From IMG/VR virus record IMGVR_UViG_3300006923_000063, positions 1 through 38,602 of that record: DNA of 38,602 nucleotides. One strand, written 5' to 3'. Positions 5,503-38,602 of the stretch are shown here, in pieces. Position 1 is the stretch's first letter. Each line of letters starts with the position of its first letter. The position numbers and the translations under genes were made by a program. The notes under the pieces are model-generated. The model saw nothing but the letters and a program-made list of their open reading frames with translations, was not told the origin of the DNA and made no database searches. Origin of the DNA: a virus.

Positions 5503-6423
5503 ATGAGTTTTGCAAATCTAAAACGCAATCGCGGAAAATCTTCAGAAGCAATCAAAAAAGCACTACAGGGTAATTCTCAAGGTGGTGGTTCATCACGAGA
5601 AAAGAATCCTAATCTATGGTATCCAAAAACTGATGATGCTGGAAATGGTTATGCTGTGATTCGCTTCTTGCCCCCTGCAGAAGGTGCAAATCTTCCATGG
5701 GCAAAAAGATATAAGCACGGATGGAAAGATAAAAACGGATGGATGATCGCTGAATGTCCAACTACACTTGGTAATGATTGCCCTATCTGTGAAGCCAATA
5801 AGGAATTATGGCAGACAGAAGATCGTGAGAATCGTAAGATTGCTTCACGCCGAAAGCGTAAGCTTGAGTATTATTTAAATATTCTTATCGAATCAGATTC
5901 TAAGAACCCAGAGAACGAAGGTCAAGTTAAAATCTTCCGTTGTGGTACTAAGATTTTTGAAATGATCCAGAATGCTCAGAATCCTGAGTTTGAAGATGAA
6001 GTAGCATTCGACCCATTTGATTTTTGGGATGGTGCTTCATTTAAGTTGAAGATTCGTAAGTATGAAGGTATGACTAATTATGATAAGTCAGAATTCAATA
6101 CTCCTTCTGAGTTAATGGATGGTGATGATGAAAAGTTAGAAGAAGTTTATAAGCAACTTCATGACTTGGGTGAATTTGTTAAGCCAGAGATATTCAAAGA
6201 TTATGATTCTCTGAAAACCAGATTCCATCGTGTCATCGGTGCGGACAGCGTAGCTTCTGCTCCGCGGTCAGCTGAAGAGGCAGTGGCTCCAAAGGCCGCA
6301 CCGGCTGCAGCTCCTGCTGAAGAGGCAGTGGCAAAAGCACCGGAGTCGGCAGAGGCCGAAATGGAAGCTGCTGAGTCGGCTGATGATGCTCTGGCATTGT
6401 TCAGAGACATGGCCAACGGCTAG
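5503..6423 (+). CDS. gp32: gp32 single-stranded DNA-binding protein
   Basis: Replication and recombination SSB of the T4 type, 306 aa (T4: 301). The basic N-terminal cooperativity arm is FANLKRNRGKSSEAIKKAL. The OB core begins with AGNGYAVIRFLPP. Zinc ligands are visible as H72, C85, C93 and C96 (T4: H, C, C, C). Other T4-like blocks are YYLNILIESD, NPENEGQVKIFRCG and SFKLKIRKYEGMTNYDKSEF. The C-terminal tail (from about 245) is Ala- and Glu-rich and acidic, as needed to recruit gp59 and polymerase. It contains a 17-base DNA duplication (6271-6287 and 6316-6332). The stop overlaps the stop of the convergent tape-measure gene. Confidence 0.95.
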   Translation: MSFANLKRNRGKSSEAIKKALQGNSQGGGSSREKNPNLWYPKTDDAGNGYAVIRFLPPAEGANLPWAKRYKHGWKDKNGWMIAECPTTLGNDCPICEANKELWQTEDRENRKIASRRKRKLEYYLNILIESDSKNPENEGQVKIFRCGTKIFEMIQNAQNPEFEDEVAFDPFDFWDGASFKLKIRKYEGMTNYDKSEFNTPSELMDGDDEKLEEVYKQLHDLGEFVKPEIFKDYDSLKTRFHRVIGADSVASAPRSAEEAVAPKAAPAAAPAEEAVAKAPESAEAEMEAAESADDALALFRDMANG

Positions 6424-8540
6424 AATATTTCAGCTGCAGGTGAAGCCACGTAGTATTCGTTATTGCGTGGCTTCTTCTTTTGGTGTATATGTGTAGTTGG
6501 TGTAGATACATTATTCACAGCTGTGGAATTCGAGCTAATTATATTGCCACCAGCAGAAGAGTTCCTTGAAGCTTGTCTTTCTTCATTTGCCATAGCACTT
6601 GTTCTTCTATTCTTTTCTGCTTGTGCATTCCTTAGTTGTTCCATATCAGTATCATAAGAATCGGTCAAGCCCAGAGTTGAACCTAAGAAATTCAAAAAAC
6701 CAGGCCCTGATTTTTGTGCTTCAAGACCTTCAGCGATTTGTTCTTCTAATTTTTCATCACTAGCACTATTTGATTCATTTATTACTGCGTCCGGCCCTTC
6801 ACTGCGATCAAACTTAAAATCACCCATGAATGGTATCGTTTGAATCACGCTCTCTACTGTACCTATTAATGATTTCCAAAAAGAAGATAATAAATTACCA
6901 AGGGTAGATATTATTCCACCTTGTTCATCAATGAATCCAGTTATATCTGTACCAGCAATCCAGTCAATCAATTGAATCGGCAATCCTATTAGAACTTCAA
7001 GTATACCCTCTGCCATTCCTCGTAACCCAGTAAGAACAATAGTTGCAAAGTCTGCAGAGTCTGGCAATTTTAATATATCTTCAACAGCTTGAAATATACC
7101 ATTACCTAGTGCCATAAGTGGCAATAGTACAGTCCCAACCAACCCCTTTGACAATATTCCTTTGAATCCACCCATGCTAGTTACAAATCCCTTAACCATA
7201 GGTACTAAATTCTTTGCTATCTTCTTTAGATTTTTGAACATATTAGCAATGCCACTAAATACTCCTTTAGCTTTTTCCTTTTTATTTTTTGCACTATCTA
7301 ATAACCCAGCACCAATTGATTTGGTAGCATCAATTAATTTCTGGAACATGAATTTTCTTTCTTTTACTTCTTCTGTGGATTCAGGTGTTACTGATGATTT
7401 ATTTTCTTCTAATGTTTCAATTAGTTCATCTTTTATTTTCTCTTGTGCTAATAAATTTGCTCCAGCAATTTTAATATTTGTATCTGATATATTAGATAAT
7501 GATTTTGTATTAGACTGCCTACCTAATATAGATATATCAATTAATGTTTTAACTAAATTATCATTACCTTCTTCTATTGCAGAAGTTTCAAGCTTTGATT
7601 TTGCTTCAATTGCTGTAATTACTTTGTTCTGTGTTTCATCTAATTCTTCAATTTTCTTTTCAACAAATTGTCCGCTGAGTTCTGTAACCTCTTTCAATTT
7701 AGCAGTTGCATCTAAGTCGGCTTGGTGCATAGAATCTTCGCGTTGTTGCTTGGCTTCCTCTAGAGCCATTTCAGCTTTTGCTTCTGCTGCTTGTTGTATC
7801 TTGCCAGCTGCCCACATAAGCCCTAGGCCAGCTATACCAGAGTCGGATAACAGAGTAGCAGTGACGCCAAGTATTGCTGGTGTCAACGGGCCAATTTTTT
7901 CTTTTAGGTCCTTAAAGCCACGAACTAATGCTTTATCCTGAGACCCAGAGATTTTTTGTAAATTGTCCAGAGACCTAAATTGATTTTCTAATTGTACCCT
8001 TGCATTGCGATCGACGCCCTTAGAATAATCTAATTGCTTCTTCATCTGAATAAGCTTTTCTGAGTCTTTCTTTATTGCAGCACGGTTACCATCAGCAATG
8101 TTATCTGCCATTTCGCCTAAGCGACCAGAAAGCTTATTTGCTATTGAATCTTTAAATATATCACTTTGCTTATCAGCAGCGATTTTGATTCCTTCCAACT
8201 CAGCAAAATTCTCTGCACTTAACTTTGAATCTTTTGCTGATAACTCATGTAAGCCAGTAGTAGTTAACTTTGCAGTATCCGTTAATCCATTTATTATACC
8301 AATCTGCTGTTCTTTGATATTACCAGCTATATCATCCTCTAATGCTTTCTTTAGATTTGTTGTATTTTCTTTAGCAGATTTTATAACATTTTCAGTATGC
8401 TTATTGAGAGAATCTAATTTCTTTGCTTGCAACGACGATGCTTTTGCTTCTGATTCTTTATTAGCCTTTGCAGAATCAGCAGCATCTTTAGTATTCTTAG
8501 CAATATCTTCTAAATTTTTATCATCTTTGTTTGTGGCCAT
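6420..8540 (-). CDS. Putative tape measure protein (gp29-like)
   Basis: Large structural protein of 706 aa. The N-terminal 400 residues are lysine/alanine-rich and helical, with long coiled-coil stretches (AEAKAEMALEEAKQQRED). Residues about 450-560 contain several hydrophobic segments (ILSKGLVGTVLLPLMALG, ILEVLIGLPIQLIDWIAG), and the C-terminus is polar and disordered. That layout is typical of tape measures, which set tail length. The gene follows the gp26/gp51 frameshift pair, the position tape measures usually occupy. T4 gp29 is 590 aa, so a somewhat longer tail is expected. Homology to gp29 itself is not proven from sequence. The start lies 3 bases after the gp51 stop. Confidence 0.7.
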   Translation of the reverse strand: MATNKDDKNLEDIAKNTKDAADSAKANKESEAKASSLQAKKLDSLNKHTENVIKSAKENTTNLKKALEDDIAGNIKEQQIGIINGLTDTAKLTTTGLHELSAKDSKLSAENFAELEGIKIAADKQSDIFKDSIANKLSGRLGEMADNIADGNRAAIKKDSEKLIQMKKQLDYSKGVDRNARVQLENQFRSLDNLQKISGSQDKALVRGFKDLKEKIGPLTPAILGVTATLLSDSGIAGLGLMWAAGKIQQAAEAKAEMALEEAKQQREDSMHQADLDATAKLKEVTELSGQFVEKKIEELDETQNKVITAIEAKSKLETSAIEEGNDNLVKTLIDISILGRQSNTKSLSNISDTNIKIAGANLLAQEKIKDELIETLEENKSSVTPESTEEVKERKFMFQKLIDATKSIGAGLLDSAKNKKEKAKGVFSGIANMFKNLKKIAKNLVPMVKGFVTSMGGFKGILSKGLVGTVLLPLMALGNGIFQAVEDILKLPDSADFATIVLTGLRGMAEGILEVLIGLPIQLIDWIAGTDITGFIDEQGGIISTLGNLLSSFWKSLIGTVESVIQTIPFMGDFKFDRSEGPDAVINESNSASDEKLEEQIAEGLEAQKSGPGFLNFLGSTLGLTDSYDTDMEQLRNAQAEKNRRTSAMANEERQASRNSSAGGNIISSNSTAVNNVSTPTTHIHQKKKPRNNEYYVASPAAEIF

Positions 8541-8542
8541 TT

Positions 8543-8737
8543 TTATTTTCTCTGTTGTCGTTCTTGATTGACTCGTTTAACTTCTTCTGTATATAACATT
8601 AAATATATCTCCCGCTCGAACGGAAGCATATTTTCAAGTTCAGCCAATGTAATATCTATAAGCTCTGATGCCATTAAATCAAAATTGATTTTATAGTGCT
8701 GGTGTGCTAGTTGTGCATCAAAGCTTAGCCGAAAAAA
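8543..8737 (-). CDS. gp51: gp51-like frameshift extension of gp26
   Basis: Open -1 frame that begins at the slippery site inside the last codons of gp26 and runs to TAA 8545-8543. After the slip it adds 62 residues, beginning RLSFDAQLAHQHYKINFDLM and continuing through LAELENMLPFEREIY. The LENMLPFEREIY block is what I recall of gp51 of marine T4-like phages. No good start codon or Shine-Dalgarno exists near its beginning; the first in-frame ATG would give only 42 aa and lose the FYK-like part. The likely product is therefore a gp26-gp51 fusion of 306 aa. gp51 is needed for baseplate hub assembly in T4. Confidence 0.7.
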   Translation of the reverse strand, partial: FFRLSFDAQLAHQHYKINFDLMASELIDITLAELENMLPFEREIYLMLYTEEVKRVNQERQQRK

Positions 8738-9462
8738 TTAGCTAAATGCTTAACCTCTAAATCATGTTTACTCTTACATGCTTTGCACGTAAATCTTTTA
8801 GTGAATACCAATTCTGGCAAATCATCAAAATACTTCTTCACTGCTTGTGATTGCTCTTCAGTCATATTGATTAAAATATTATCAATAATTTCATCGTTAG
8901 TAAAATCAGTATATACTTCATCACCATGTAAAACCATTTCAACTGATGCTGCCATCATATGTAATCCAGAGTTTGTATCACTACCATCATCTGCCTGCAT
9001 TGATTTCCTTACGCTTGCAAAAGTAGGAGCCTTCATTGATAATGTTAATTCATCATTTAGTTTTACTAATTTCTCTGGCTTGGATTTAGTTAATTTAATT
9101 TTATTTAAATCCAATTCAACTATATTTTCTGCATTGCATTCATTGCCATCTGCATCTGTCATCTTACATGTATATATTTTCTTTCTAATACTTCCTGAAC
9201 TAGCAGCTTTGATTTTAATAAAAAGATATTCCATATCTGGTACACACAAATCATCTGCTGACAATTCATTAAATGTACATGCCTTGATAAGTTCAGCAAC
9301 CACATCAAGCATATCTTCTATTTGCTTAGCCTCGTCATCTTCGGTCATCACGAGATTTAATATCTTATCTTCTTTAACTGTATATGGTCTGTATTTTACT
9401 TTCTTACCAGAGACTGGTAATATACATGATAATACTGGTGTTTCTAATTTTGGAAAACTCAT
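8725..9462 (-). CDS. gp26: Baseplate hub protein gp26 (tail assembly chaperone-like)
   Basis: 245 aa, starting MSFPKLETPVLSCILPVSGK followed by VKYRPYTVKEDKIL, the N-terminal pattern of T4-family gp26 (K-P-V-x(3)-LP and FRPFT-x-EEK). A C-terminal CKACKSKHDLEVKHLANFF carries a CxxC knuckle. It lies between a tail-tube-like gene and the tape measure, the place where long-tailed phages encode tail assembly chaperones. Its last codons contain the slippery sequence that leads into gp51. The Shine-Dalgarno on the minus strand is AAGGCG upstream of 9462. Confidence 0.8.
   Translation of the reverse strand: MSFPKLETPVLSCILPVSGKKVKYRPYTVKEDKILNLVMTEDDEAKQIEDMLDVVAELIKACTFNELSADDLCVPDMEYLFIKIKAASSGSIRKKIYTCKMTDADGNECNAENIVELDLNKIKLTKSKPEKLVKLNDELTLSMKAPTFASVRKSMQADDGSDTNSGLHMMAASVEMVLHGDEVYTDFTNDEIIDNILINMTEEQSQAVKKYFDDLPELVFTKRFTCKACKSKHDLEVKHLANFFG
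8731..8737 (-). promoter_or_regulatory. -1 frameshift slippery heptamer T TTT TTC
   Basis: In the gp26 frame the codons are AAT TTT TTC GGC TAA. T TTT TTC is a canonical X XXY YYZ heptamer two codons before the gp26 stop. The -1 frame is open from exactly this point through the gp51-like reading frame. No strong downstream stem is obvious (GCTA/TAGC is weak). Confidence 0.65.
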
Positions 9463-9479: not shown

Positions 9480-10001
9480 TTATTTGCCATTCATTTCGTA
9501 AATATTGTATGTCATTGTAACTGTCATTTTTGCAACTTCGCCATCGGAATATGCCATTGGCAAATCATCTATCTTCATTGGCCAGATTGAAGTCATATGC
9601 CAAGTTCTTACTGCTGTATTTTGCTGATCTAATAATTGTAATTTCATTTCTGTAGAATATTCGCTAAGGTAATTCATATTATATGTTTCTGGGTTCCAGA
9701 TAACGTCTATCCAATCCTCAAAGAATTGTCTCACATACCCATTACCATCCATATAAAAATTCATTACTATTGGGTTATAACTTCTTTGGTATGGTAATAC
9801 AATCGGAGCAGATTTGCTAGCCCAGTCGAATGTTAATATGTCTGTACCTGGAAAGTTCACACTATTACAATTTTTATTAATCACTTGCATTATGTCATTG
9901 TCATATTTTGCTAGTGCTTTAGGTGGAGTAAGTATAACTTTATACTTGTTGCCACGTACGTAATCTTGTGCTACTGCCGATAAAATATCATTTACTTTCA
10001 T
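9480..10001 (-). CDS. Tail tube-like protein (gp19/gp54 fold)
   Basis: 173 aa, the size of the T4 tail tube gp19 (163). The C-terminal part RTWHMTSIWPMKIDDLPMAY then TVTMTYNIYE follows the gp19 pattern (I-x-G-L-WP-x(4)-L, then a beta strand ending in Y-x-E). The region NPIVMNFYMDGNGYVRQFFEDW matches the tube-domain strand-helix. It could be the tail tube or one of the tube initiators (gp48/gp54) that share the fold. Its place before gp26, gp51 and the tape measure fits a tube-type protein. It overlaps the upstream gene by 4 bases. Confidence 0.65.
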   Translation of the reverse strand: MKVNDILSAVAQDYVRGNKYKVILTPPKALAKYDNDIMQVINKNCNSVNFPGTDILTFDWASKSAPIVLPYQRSYNPIVMNFYMDGNGYVRQFFEDWIDVIWNPETYNMNYLSEYSTEMKLQLLDQQNTAVRTWHMTSIWPMKIDDLPMAYSDGEVAKMTVTMTYNIYEMNGK

Positions 10002-35114: not shown

Positions 35115-35620
35115 TGGCAGATTCATATCTTTATCTTGAAGATGGAACTAATCAATTAGAAGAACAAGAAGCAACTGTTATTTCAACAGGGGTTGCAAAT
35201 GCTGGTGATATAGTTGCTCTAGATGAAAATGGACAATTAGATGCATCTATTGCTATCTCAGCAGGTGGCTATATTACATTGGAAACTAATGAGGATGTCA
35301 TTGGTGGTGAGTTTATAAATATATATAATGATGCTGGAACGCCAAAGATACAATTGGCTTCTGCATCGGGAGAATTATTTGCTGATGGATTTGTCAAAGC
35401 GGATTATTCTGCCGGCGACATATGTATAGTATATTTAGGTGGAATGAATACATCACTCACTGGATTAACTGTAGGGGCTCAATATTTTTTAAGTCTCATT
35501 GCAGGTTCTATTACTGATAGCCCACCTACGGGCTCTCAAGTAACTATACAATTGCTTGGTAGGGCTATCTCAACAACTTCATTATCATTTGATCCAGTCA
35601 ATCCAATAGTGAGGTCATAA
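35114..35620 (+). CDS. Beta-rich fibre-associated/decoration-like protein (168 aa)
   Basis: 168 aa, acidic. An N-terminal tail (SYLYLEDGTNQLEEQEATVI) is followed by a compact beta domain: GDIVALDENGQLDASIAISA, DGFVKADYSAGDICIVYLGG, TGLTVGAQYFLSLIAGSIT and VTIQLLGRAISTTSLSFDP. This domain appears in tail-fibre C-termini and as separate proteins in marine phages, where it may bind the fibre shaft. It is coupled to both neighbours by 1-base overlaps (TAATG), so it is expressed with the giant fibre. Confidence 0.6.
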   Translation: MADSYLYLEDGTNQLEEQEATVISTGVANAGDIVALDENGQLDASIAISAGGYITLETNEDVIGGEFINIYNDAGTPKIQLASASGELFADGFVKADYSAGDICIVYLGGMNTSLTGLTVGAQYFLSLIAGSITDSPPTGSQVTIQLLGRAISTTSLSFDPVNPIVRS

Positions 35621-38602
35621 TGGCAGAAAGAAAACCACTCGTCCTTGGCGATGACGGAATCATTCGTGAATTAGATTTATTGAATGATACAGTCGCAGGT
35701 GTCGATTCATTAGATGCAAAAGCCATCCGGCAAACCTTTGCATCAACCACTGCAGGACAGACAACTTTTACTATCACTGATGGTTATATTCCTGAGCAAG
35801 CTTCGGTTTGGTATCAAGGAAGAAAATTAATCAATGTAGATGATGTAGATGTTTCGTCTGGAACTGAAATCGTTTTAACTAATCCTGTTACTTCTGATGG
35901 AGATATAATAGACTTTGTTGGTATTAAATTACTAGGCATTGGAGAAACTTCAGAGAATGCTCTAGTATCCAGACAGACCTTCACAAACACAACCAATGGC
36001 GAAACTACTTTTACTATTGCTAGTGGTTATTCGCCTGGTGACATATCAGTATTTTATCAAGGCTTGAAACTAGTAAATGGTGATGATGTAATAGTTACAT
36101 CGGGAACTGAAATCGTTTTAGCTGAGCCTATTACTTCTGATGGAGATATAATTGAGATTGAAGCTATGCATCATATCTCATTATCTAATGCTAGTATTGT
36201 AAGACAATCATATACCAATACTACTACTGGCGATACTATCTTTACAATTAGTAATGGATATAACCCTGGCCAGGCATCTGTATATTATCAAGGATTAAAA
36301 ATAATCAATGGCGATGATGTTGATATAACATCAGGTTCGTATATTGAATTGACTGATCCTGTTTCTTCAGATGGTGATGCGATTGACATAGTCGCAATTA
36401 GAGGAACGCTTTTCGTAGATACGTATTCAAAAAGTGAGATAGATAATTTGACATCAGGGCATGAGCCGGCTTTACCAGCCAATACTGACCCAGGTTATGT
36501 CCTTTCAGATGATGGTGCTGGCACTCGGTCTTGGGTTAGTTTACAAACAGGTGCTGTACAGTATCTGAATGATTTAGATGATGTAGTTATTACTGGAACA
36601 ACTACCGATAAAATATTATATTCTACAAGTGAAAATATTTGGGAAAATAAAAGCTTATCTGAATTAAATCTTGCCACAGCAAGTCATACTCATTCATTTG
36701 GTTCACTCACTGATACACCTAATACTATTGCTGGTTATGGTATTATTGATTCACCATCTGATGCATCTGTTGTACATAAGACTGGAAATTTAGAAGAAAC
36801 TATTAACGGAAATAAAACATTCACTAATAGTTTAGAATTGCATGTCTCTGGAATTTCTAGTATATTTAATATTAATTCTGATACTGGGAATAGTTCTTAT
36901 ATAAGATTAAGAAATAATGATGCTAGCAGGTGGATATTTGGTAAAGATTCTTCTACAGAATCTGGAAGTGATGTAGGCTCTGATTTTATAATCAATAGTT
37001 ATCCTGATTCTGGAGCACCCTCAAACGTATTCAAAATCACTAGAAGTACTGGTGATATTGATATTGCAAATAATCTGGATGTTGCTGGTAATATTACTCA
37101 AGGGACAAATGCAGTACTCGATGTTAGTATGTTAGATGACTCAGATACAACATCGGGCATAGTACAACTAGTAGGCGGAGTGTTGCCGAGCATATATTTA
37201 CCACCATTGGGTATATCTGAGACACTAACGGCGGCGAATGATACGGCGCATACTGGCCTGACAGCCCAGACTGGCGACATATGTATCAGGACAGACCTGA
37301 GCAAAGTTTTCATACTTGCTCAGCCAGGCACTACAGCCTGGACTAGTGAGGCGTCACCCGGCGACTGGGTGGAACTAAGTGCAAGTCCTGGTGTTATATC
37401 CGTAGACACCCAAACTGGTGTAGTGGACCTTTCAACGTCTTATGATTTATACGGCGGTTGGAACATCAGAGCAAATGCTGGCTCGCAGGAAGTAATATCA
37501 ACTGGCGAAATAGTTACTCTGGAAAATGGAACAGATATTTCTATTACTAATTCTGGAAATACATTCACAATTAATAGTACTGCTACGGATACGGATACTC
37601 TTACAGGTTTAACAGATACCATTATTGATGCTTCTCCGAGTATAGGCGATGTTCTATATTGGGACGGTACTGCTGATTGGATAAATGGAACTCTTACTGA
37701 TGCTGGAATCAAAGCAGATTTTACAGAAAATGAATTATTTAATTTAAAGGGTAATCTATCAGCAACTACAGCTCCTACATCAGCAACTGATGATACAACT
37801 CTTGGTTATGTAGTTGGCTCGCTATGGGTAGATACTACAAACGATAAAGCGTATATTGCTTCTGATGTAACGGACGGTGCAGCCAATTGGATTGATATTA
37901 CCAGCCTTGACCCTAATGATTTCGAGCCAGCATTACCCAGTAATACAAATGCAGGCTATGTCTTATCGGACAATGGCTCGGGCACACGGTCATGGGTAGA
38001 AATATCTACCGACGGTGGTGATGCTGCTTCATTAGATGGCTATGATACATTCCTATCAGGCAACCACTGGGGTGTGATACCAATCACAGATGCCTCTGGT
38101 GCGACACACGTCGGTAAGTTTTTAAGATTTTATGGTGACGACACTACAGCAGATGCTACCAATGCTGATTTTTCATTATCGGTGAACGCGGCAACCAACC
38201 CCAGCCTGTCATTCAATAATGATGCGGGTGCTGAAGTTGCCTCTGTGTCCAACACCGGCGACTTACAGATTGATGGTGCGCTCACGGTAGATAGCACCGG
38301 CTCATCAGTATTCTCAGGCAACGTGTTGGTGGGTAAGATTAGTGCTTCAAAAGACACTGTAGGTGCAGAACTTAAATCAGACGGTCGCATAAACGCTACT
38401 ATGTCTTCTGGAAGCCCTTTACTTGCTAATCGTCAGACTTCTGATGGCGACATTGCAATCTTCCAAAAAGACGGCACATCCGTAGGTAGTATTGGTGTTG
38501 CCTTTAACGATAATTTATTTATATCAGGCAATAGTAGTCACTCAGGTATAGCTTTCGGTTCAACTGAAATTTACCCGTCAACGCCAGCAGGGGCGAGCAA
38601 TG
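35620..38602 (+). CDS. Giant tail fibre protein (partial, runs off the window)
   Basis: At least 994 codons with no stop before the window end. Residues about 30-265 contain three repeats of about 80 aa, each with R-Q-x-(F/Y)-x(4)-G-x-T-x-F-T-I, then YQGxKLINxDDV, TSGTEIVL and SDGDxID. A second repeat occurs twice, around residues 282 and 770: PALPANTDPGYVLSDDGAG with TRSWV, and PALPSNTNAGYVLSDNGSG with TRSWV. HTHSFGSL and GDIDIANNLDVAGNI are typical shaft elements. It begins MAERKPLVLGDDGIIRELDL, a common fibre N-terminus that attaches to the virion. The missing end probably carries the receptor-binding tip or an autoproteolytic chaperone domain. Confidence 0.8.
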   Translation, partial: MAERKPLVLGDDGIIRELDLLNDTVAGVDSLDAKAIRQTFASTTAGQTTFTITDGYIPEQASVWYQGRKLINVDDVDVSSGTEIVLTNPVTSDGDIIDFVGIKLLGIGETSENALVSRQTFTNTTNGETTFTIASGYSPGDISVFYQGLKLVNGDDVIVTSGTEIVLAEPITSDGDIIEIEAMHHISLSNASIVRQSYTNTTTGDTIFTISNGYNPGQASVYYQGLKIINGDDVDITSGSYIELTDPVSSDGDAIDIVAIRGTLFVDTYSKSEIDNLTSGHEPALPANTDPGYVLSDDGAGTRSWVSLQTGAVQYLNDLDDVVITGTTTDKILYSTSENIWENKSLSELNLATASHTHSFGSLTDTPNTIAGYGIIDSPSDASVVHKTGNLEETINGNKTFTNSLELHVSGISSIFNINSDTGNSSYIRLRNNDASRWIFGKDSSTESGSDVGSDFIINSYPDSGAPSNVFKITRSTGDIDIANNLDVAGNITQGTNAVLDVSMLDDSDTTSGIVQLVGGVLPSIYLPPLGISETLTAANDTAHTGLTAQTGDICIRTDLSKVFILAQPGTTAWTSEASPGDWVELSASPGVISVDTQTGVVDLSTSYDLYGGWNIRANAGSQEVISTGEIVTLENGTDISITNSGNTFTINSTATDTDTLTGLTDTIIDASPSIGDVLYWDGTADWINGTLTDAGIKADFTENELFNLKGNLSATTAPTSATDDTTLGYVVGSLWVDTTNDKAYIASDVTDGAANWIDITSLDPNDFEPALPSNTNAGYVLSDNGSGTRSWVEISTDGGDAASLDGYDTFLSGNHWGVIPITDASGATHVGKFLRFYGDDTTADATNADFSLSVNAATNPSLSFNNDAGAEVASVSNTGDLQIDGALTVDSTGSSVFSGNVLVGKISASKDTVGAELKSDGRINATMSSGSPLLANRQTSDGDIAIFQKDGTSVGSIGVAFNDNLFISGNSSHSGIAFGSTEIYPSTPAGASN

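Follow-up and report, generated by a model that had tools for sequence, protein, structure and literature searches.

The DNA analysed here (the window) is a virus record from IMG/VR of 38.6 kb, 38,602 nucleotides in all. Its minus strand carries, in order, a head closure-like gene, a DNA end protector, a tail-tube-like gene, gp26, an open gp51 frame and a 706-aa gene. The tail-tube-like product (9480..10001) matches PF06841 (E 1.7e-8) and phrog_45 (E 1.9e-30). The gp26 gene (8725..9462) encodes a 245-aa protein assigned as a short tail assembly chaperone (TAC-N), and the gp51 frame (8543-8737) overlaps its end. The 706-aa gene (6420..8540), whose start adjoins the end of the gp51 frame, has a relative in the contig L002 (E 1e-43); it gave no family match in Pfam and PHROG profile comparisons, and no BLAST match to the tape measure of Pelagibacter phage HTVC008M. 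By its position and size, the 706-aa protein is probably the tape measure, which would be the client of the chaperone. The order is nearly the same in HTVC008M, with one extra small gene before the annotated putative tape measure. Outside this cluster, on the plus strand, the window has a phage-encoded permuted tmRNA (2266-2602; RF04321 tmRNA_permuted, 81.1 bits, E 3.6e-14; RF01849 alpha_tmRNA, 60.1 bits, both from Rfam) with the tag ANDDMVFALAA as predicted by ARAGORN, which points to an alphaproteobacterial host; ARAGORN found no tmRNA in the first 49 kb of HTVC008M. An open frame of at least 995 codons, also on the plus strand (35617-38601), runs off the end of the window and matches in part phrog_23595, minor tail protein (E 1.9e-13).

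The 3' end of gp26, which is read on the minus strand from 9462 to 8725, has the sequence GCT AAT TTT TTC GGC TAA. It contains the slippery heptamer T TTT TTC (8731..8737), of the form X XXY YYZ, with the codons TTT TTC in frame 0 and TTT TTT after a shift of -1, and a single sense codon, GGC, separates it from the gp26 stop. The -1 frame is open from the heptamer to a TAA at 8545-8543, which adds 62 aa following the slip and extends 60 codons beyond the gp26 stop, while frame 0 closes after 5 codons and frame +1 after 2 (computed on L001, which has the same sequence). Slippage would thus append the -1-frame C domain (gp51; 8543..8731, 62 aa and stop) to 244 residues of gp26, yielding a fusion of 306 aa. 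The original prediction had placed this heptamer just before the gp26 stop, with the -1 frame open through gp51 and a product of the same length, and all of this could be read directly between 8737 and 8543. A check of 37 gene ends of the window showed T TTT TTN within the last 15 codons of gp26 alone; X XXY YYZ motifs of another type occur at four other ends.

The two halves of the predicted fusion belong to recognizable families. The N domain falls into the T4 gp26 family (PF12322, E 1.5e-42; phrog_150, E 4.3e-44), and the C domain matches phrog_634 (E 1.1e-12) and the C-terminal end of phrog_150 (E 9.5e-4). The gp26 model, with a pLDDT of 93.1, matches other gp26 proteins in a viral structure library. 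Its best match among solved structures is the HK97 tail assembly chaperone 2ob9, with a Z of 7.0 over 87 residues (VIA-align 2); in Foldseek alone the same pair has an E of 0.68, at rank 3 and with the highest probability among the matches listed, and fold values of such size can arise by chance. We therefore consider the similarity of the modelled N-terminal fold to 2ob9 modest, supporting membership among the chaperones but not proving it. A sequence search with the gp26 profile against solved structures gave nothing credible, and the solved chaperones have no detectable sequence similarity to gp26. The C domain is predicted to be helical (pLDDT 82.5).

Since a break at a homopolymer is where a sequencing or assembly error would fall, gp26 and gp51 could in principle be a single frame, and the original prediction had itself raised the length of the T run as a doubt. 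The run of six T recurs, however, in L001, another IMG/VR contig with a 100% identical gp26, and in L002 (56% protein identity), which makes an assembly error very unlikely; two scans for closer relatives yielded only these two contigs and one fragment. Moreover, the same break is present in 95 distinct sequences, isolates included, by which such an error is effectively excluded.

These 95 junctions, from loci in IMG/VR and in annotated phages, form the alignment of relatives that had been proposed as a check. The loci are related and not independent, so that the counts below are strong trends rather than exact probabilities. An in-frame heptamer is present in 95/95, as T TTT TTC in 69, T TTT TTT in 20 and T TTT TTA in 6, and is placed 0-8 codons ahead of the gp26 stop. 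Elsewhere in the same genes, in-frame T TTT TTN is found at 6 of 21,085 codons, and only 3 of 82 other Phe-Phe pairs are slippery. The residue before the Phe pair is variable (Ser, Asp, Asn, Ala, Thr, Gly), yet the last base of its codon is T in all 95 junctions, where codon usage predicts 58.3. Past the stop, the -1 frame of the relatives stays open for a median of 60 codons, versus 5 and 6 in the other frames. In every relative it runs through the same C domain, to a stop or, in the three loci that reach the contig edge ahead of the -1-frame stop, to the contig end. The encoded peptide is conserved from its first residues (R..L.H..L.NYYKTNFALMQHHKYSL.ELE.M.PWER). Together with the poor starts of gp51 described below, the constant heptamer and the open frame support the original prediction of a programmed -1 frameshift.

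The slip could be made by RNA polymerase on the T run instead of by the ribosome, and runs of 8 or more T do occur in some relatives. RNA polymerase slippage usually needs longer T runs than the six T present in the window and in most relatives; the run is interrupted by C in 69/95, and the heptamer has the same phase in the reading frame in every case. We regard a fusion message of this origin as highly improbable.

A second way to express the C domain would be as a separate small protein, whose translation would start at an internal ATG through coupling to gp26 or re-initiation behind it. In the window, the gp51 part has its first in-frame ATG at 8674; a protein begun there would have 43 aa, and no Shine-Dalgarno sequence precedes this ATG. 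Most relatives have an ATG or another start codon in the -1 frame, with an ATG present in 82 of the 92 scored, and gp51 is drawn as its own CDS in the annotations of Syn1, syn9, Melnitz and others. On the other hand, no ATG lies between the slip and the conserved core in the remaining 10 loci, among them the nearest relative, L002, and an ATG preceded by at least four Shine-Dalgarno bases is found for gp51 in 7/92, compared with 54/81 for the ATG of gp26 itself. About 19 conserved -1-frame residues lie upstream of the internal Met, the C domain of T4 gp51 is kept fused to an N part, and separate translation leaves the heptamer unexplained. Such a protein is thus unlikely, though somewhat less so than polymerase slippage, and the statement that gp51 has no proper start holds for most of the junctions. 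In the genomes of S-WAM1 (L007, 4703-4892), ACP17 (L089, 3263-3415) and AS-yj (L110, 1906-2072), the C domain is left blank between gp26 and the next annotated gene, and the annotations of other phages give it a short gene of its own.

As judged by profile, T4 makes the same two protein forms without a slippery site, from a short gene (26) and a long one (51) that lie side by side on opposite strands. T4 gp26 matches PF12322 only, while in T4 gp51 the PF12322 match covers residues 1-201 and is followed by a match to the C domain; the two proteins match each other in a pairwise comparison (E 2e-6). The profile of the fusion aligns with T4 gp26 up to Phe-Phe and with T4 gp51 through residue 246. 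Consequently, the proposed correspondence of T4 gp26/gp51 to the chaperone system is supported by the family match and has to be amended in one respect, as the counterpart of T4 gp51 is the whole fusion and not the short -1-frame piece. The heptamer is absent in eight phages with a separate gp51 (T4, VR20, fHyAci03, kvi, AhMtk13a, a Jiaodavirus, Rgz1 and GomatiRiver_11); T4, VR20 and the Jiaodavirus keep the Phe-Phe pair but encode it as TTC TTT. It is present in AS-yj, LG08 and HTVC008M, all with gp51 in the -1 frame. The heptamer therefore tracks the -1-frame gp51: it is found where it is needed and is missing where the long form has a gene of its own. PX29 and PC-Liy1 (L093 and L095), which belong to T4's own family, the Straboviridae, retain the frameshift arrangement, as does AS-yj, and T4-type members have two genes. 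With both arrangements in the Straboviridae, the switch happened within or near the family.

The sequences flanking the heptamer give hints of stimulators on both sides, a Shine-Dalgarno-like element upstream and an RNA structure downstream. A Shine-Dalgarno-like match of at least 4 bases is present in the 18 nt ahead of the heptamer at 92% of the junctions, versus 21% at control places, a signal that owes part of its strength to a conserved Leu-Glu-Gly-Leu peptide. Compared with synonymous versions, the upstream pairing nevertheless gains about 1.4 kcal/mol in strength, an excess not seen at control sites. Most relatives have a stronger element, about 10-14 nt upstream of the heptamer; the window lacks this well-placed element and has only GAGG (8748..8751), 17-20 nt upstream, a weak candidate for the same role. 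Downstream, the RNA of the relatives is more stable than synonymous versions, with a mean z of -1.42 three codons past the slip and near zero at codon 22; the shuffle profile peaks directly after the site and has a smaller unexplained dip about 240 nt further. In the window, a possible stimulatory hairpin (8655..8727; -22.2 kcal/mol, z -2.5) lies shortly after the heptamer and folds the same way in L002. Codon identity between the window and L002 is 14/19 in the hairpin part and 10/19 in the rest of the C domain, which is no clear difference. RNAalifold found no shared downstream structure in 88 relatives, so that any stimulator would differ between lineages. This layout recalls the E. coli dnaX cassette, where a Shine-Dalgarno-like element, a homopolymer heptamer and a downstream structure are combined as in many of the relatives; the dnaX heptamer is A AAA AAG and not U-rich, its product and purpose differ, and the upstream element of the window is weak and further away. 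Tentatively, with chances a little short of even, the junction in T4-like phages may be a three-part dnaX-like cassette of Shine-Dalgarno-like element, U-rich heptamer and downstream RNA structure, whose parts are traded off between lineages, the phage of the window making up for the lack of a well-placed upstream element with a strong hairpin.

The arrangement resembles that of lambda gpG/gpGT and of the chaperones of other long-tailed phages, where a short form and a -1 fusion are encoded downstream of a tube-type gene and ahead of the tape measure, for which the 706-aa gene is the probable counterpart in the window. The slippery heptamer of lambda is G GGA AAG, different from the T TTT TTC of the window. 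That the product order mirrors lambda-type chaperones was part of the original prediction; the gene order and the modest fold match to HK97 agree with a G/GT system, but the identity of the upstream gene is less certain than was assumed. Its counterpart in PX29 and OLIVR6, at the same place, is annotated as gp54, the baseplate tail tube initiator, so that the tube-like gene of the window may be gp54-like and not the major tube protein. We conclude that gp26 and the -1-frame gp51 stretch together form, with high confidence, a single tail assembly chaperone gene that has two products. The majority of ribosomes would terminate at the gp26 stop and release the short form of 245 aa, and a minority would shift by -1 on T TTT TTC to make the 306-aa fusion with the gp51 domain. 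Both forms would jointly bind the tape measure protein encoded downstream as the tube assembles around it, in the manner of lambda gpG/gpGT.

The idea of a frameshift in T4-like phages is not new. The equivalence of T4 gp26/gp51 to tail assembly chaperones was published by Vladimirov, Gautam and Davidson in 2022 (Virology 566:9-15), according to PMC10885494 and PMC12846349. As cited in PMC10885494, that work describes some T4-like phages that, rather than frameshifting, have a short chaperone gene plus a second, longer gene for the fusion, and as cited in PMC12846349 it reports poly-T slip signals in the short gene. As far as these accounts describe them, the T4-like proteins have the same families and the same short and long forms as those of the window, and the present locus is a well-supported further case of a -1 frameshifted tail assembly chaperone of the published kind. 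Its lineage is new, with a gp26 at most 35% identical to those of cultured phages. A similar site layout is described in PMC12846349 for the Vandenendeviridae, such as phage Adele, where the short gene has a T-rich site for a -1 shift close to its end and is followed by a long open -1 frame and then directly by the tape measure; the motif there is GTTTTT, compared with TTTTTT[C/T/A] in the gp26 set.

Annotations of many cyanophage and marine T4-like genomes, which show the pair as two genes or leave part of it blank, are corrected by the present reading. In a 2010 review, T4 gp26 and gp51 are listed as hub assembly chaperones (PMC3004832). Our analysis adds independent support for the view that the 'hub assembly' genes 26 and 51 of T4 are its tail assembly chaperones, provided by two genes instead of a frameshift, and the chaperone reading makes the old question of the role of genes 26 and 51 directly testable.
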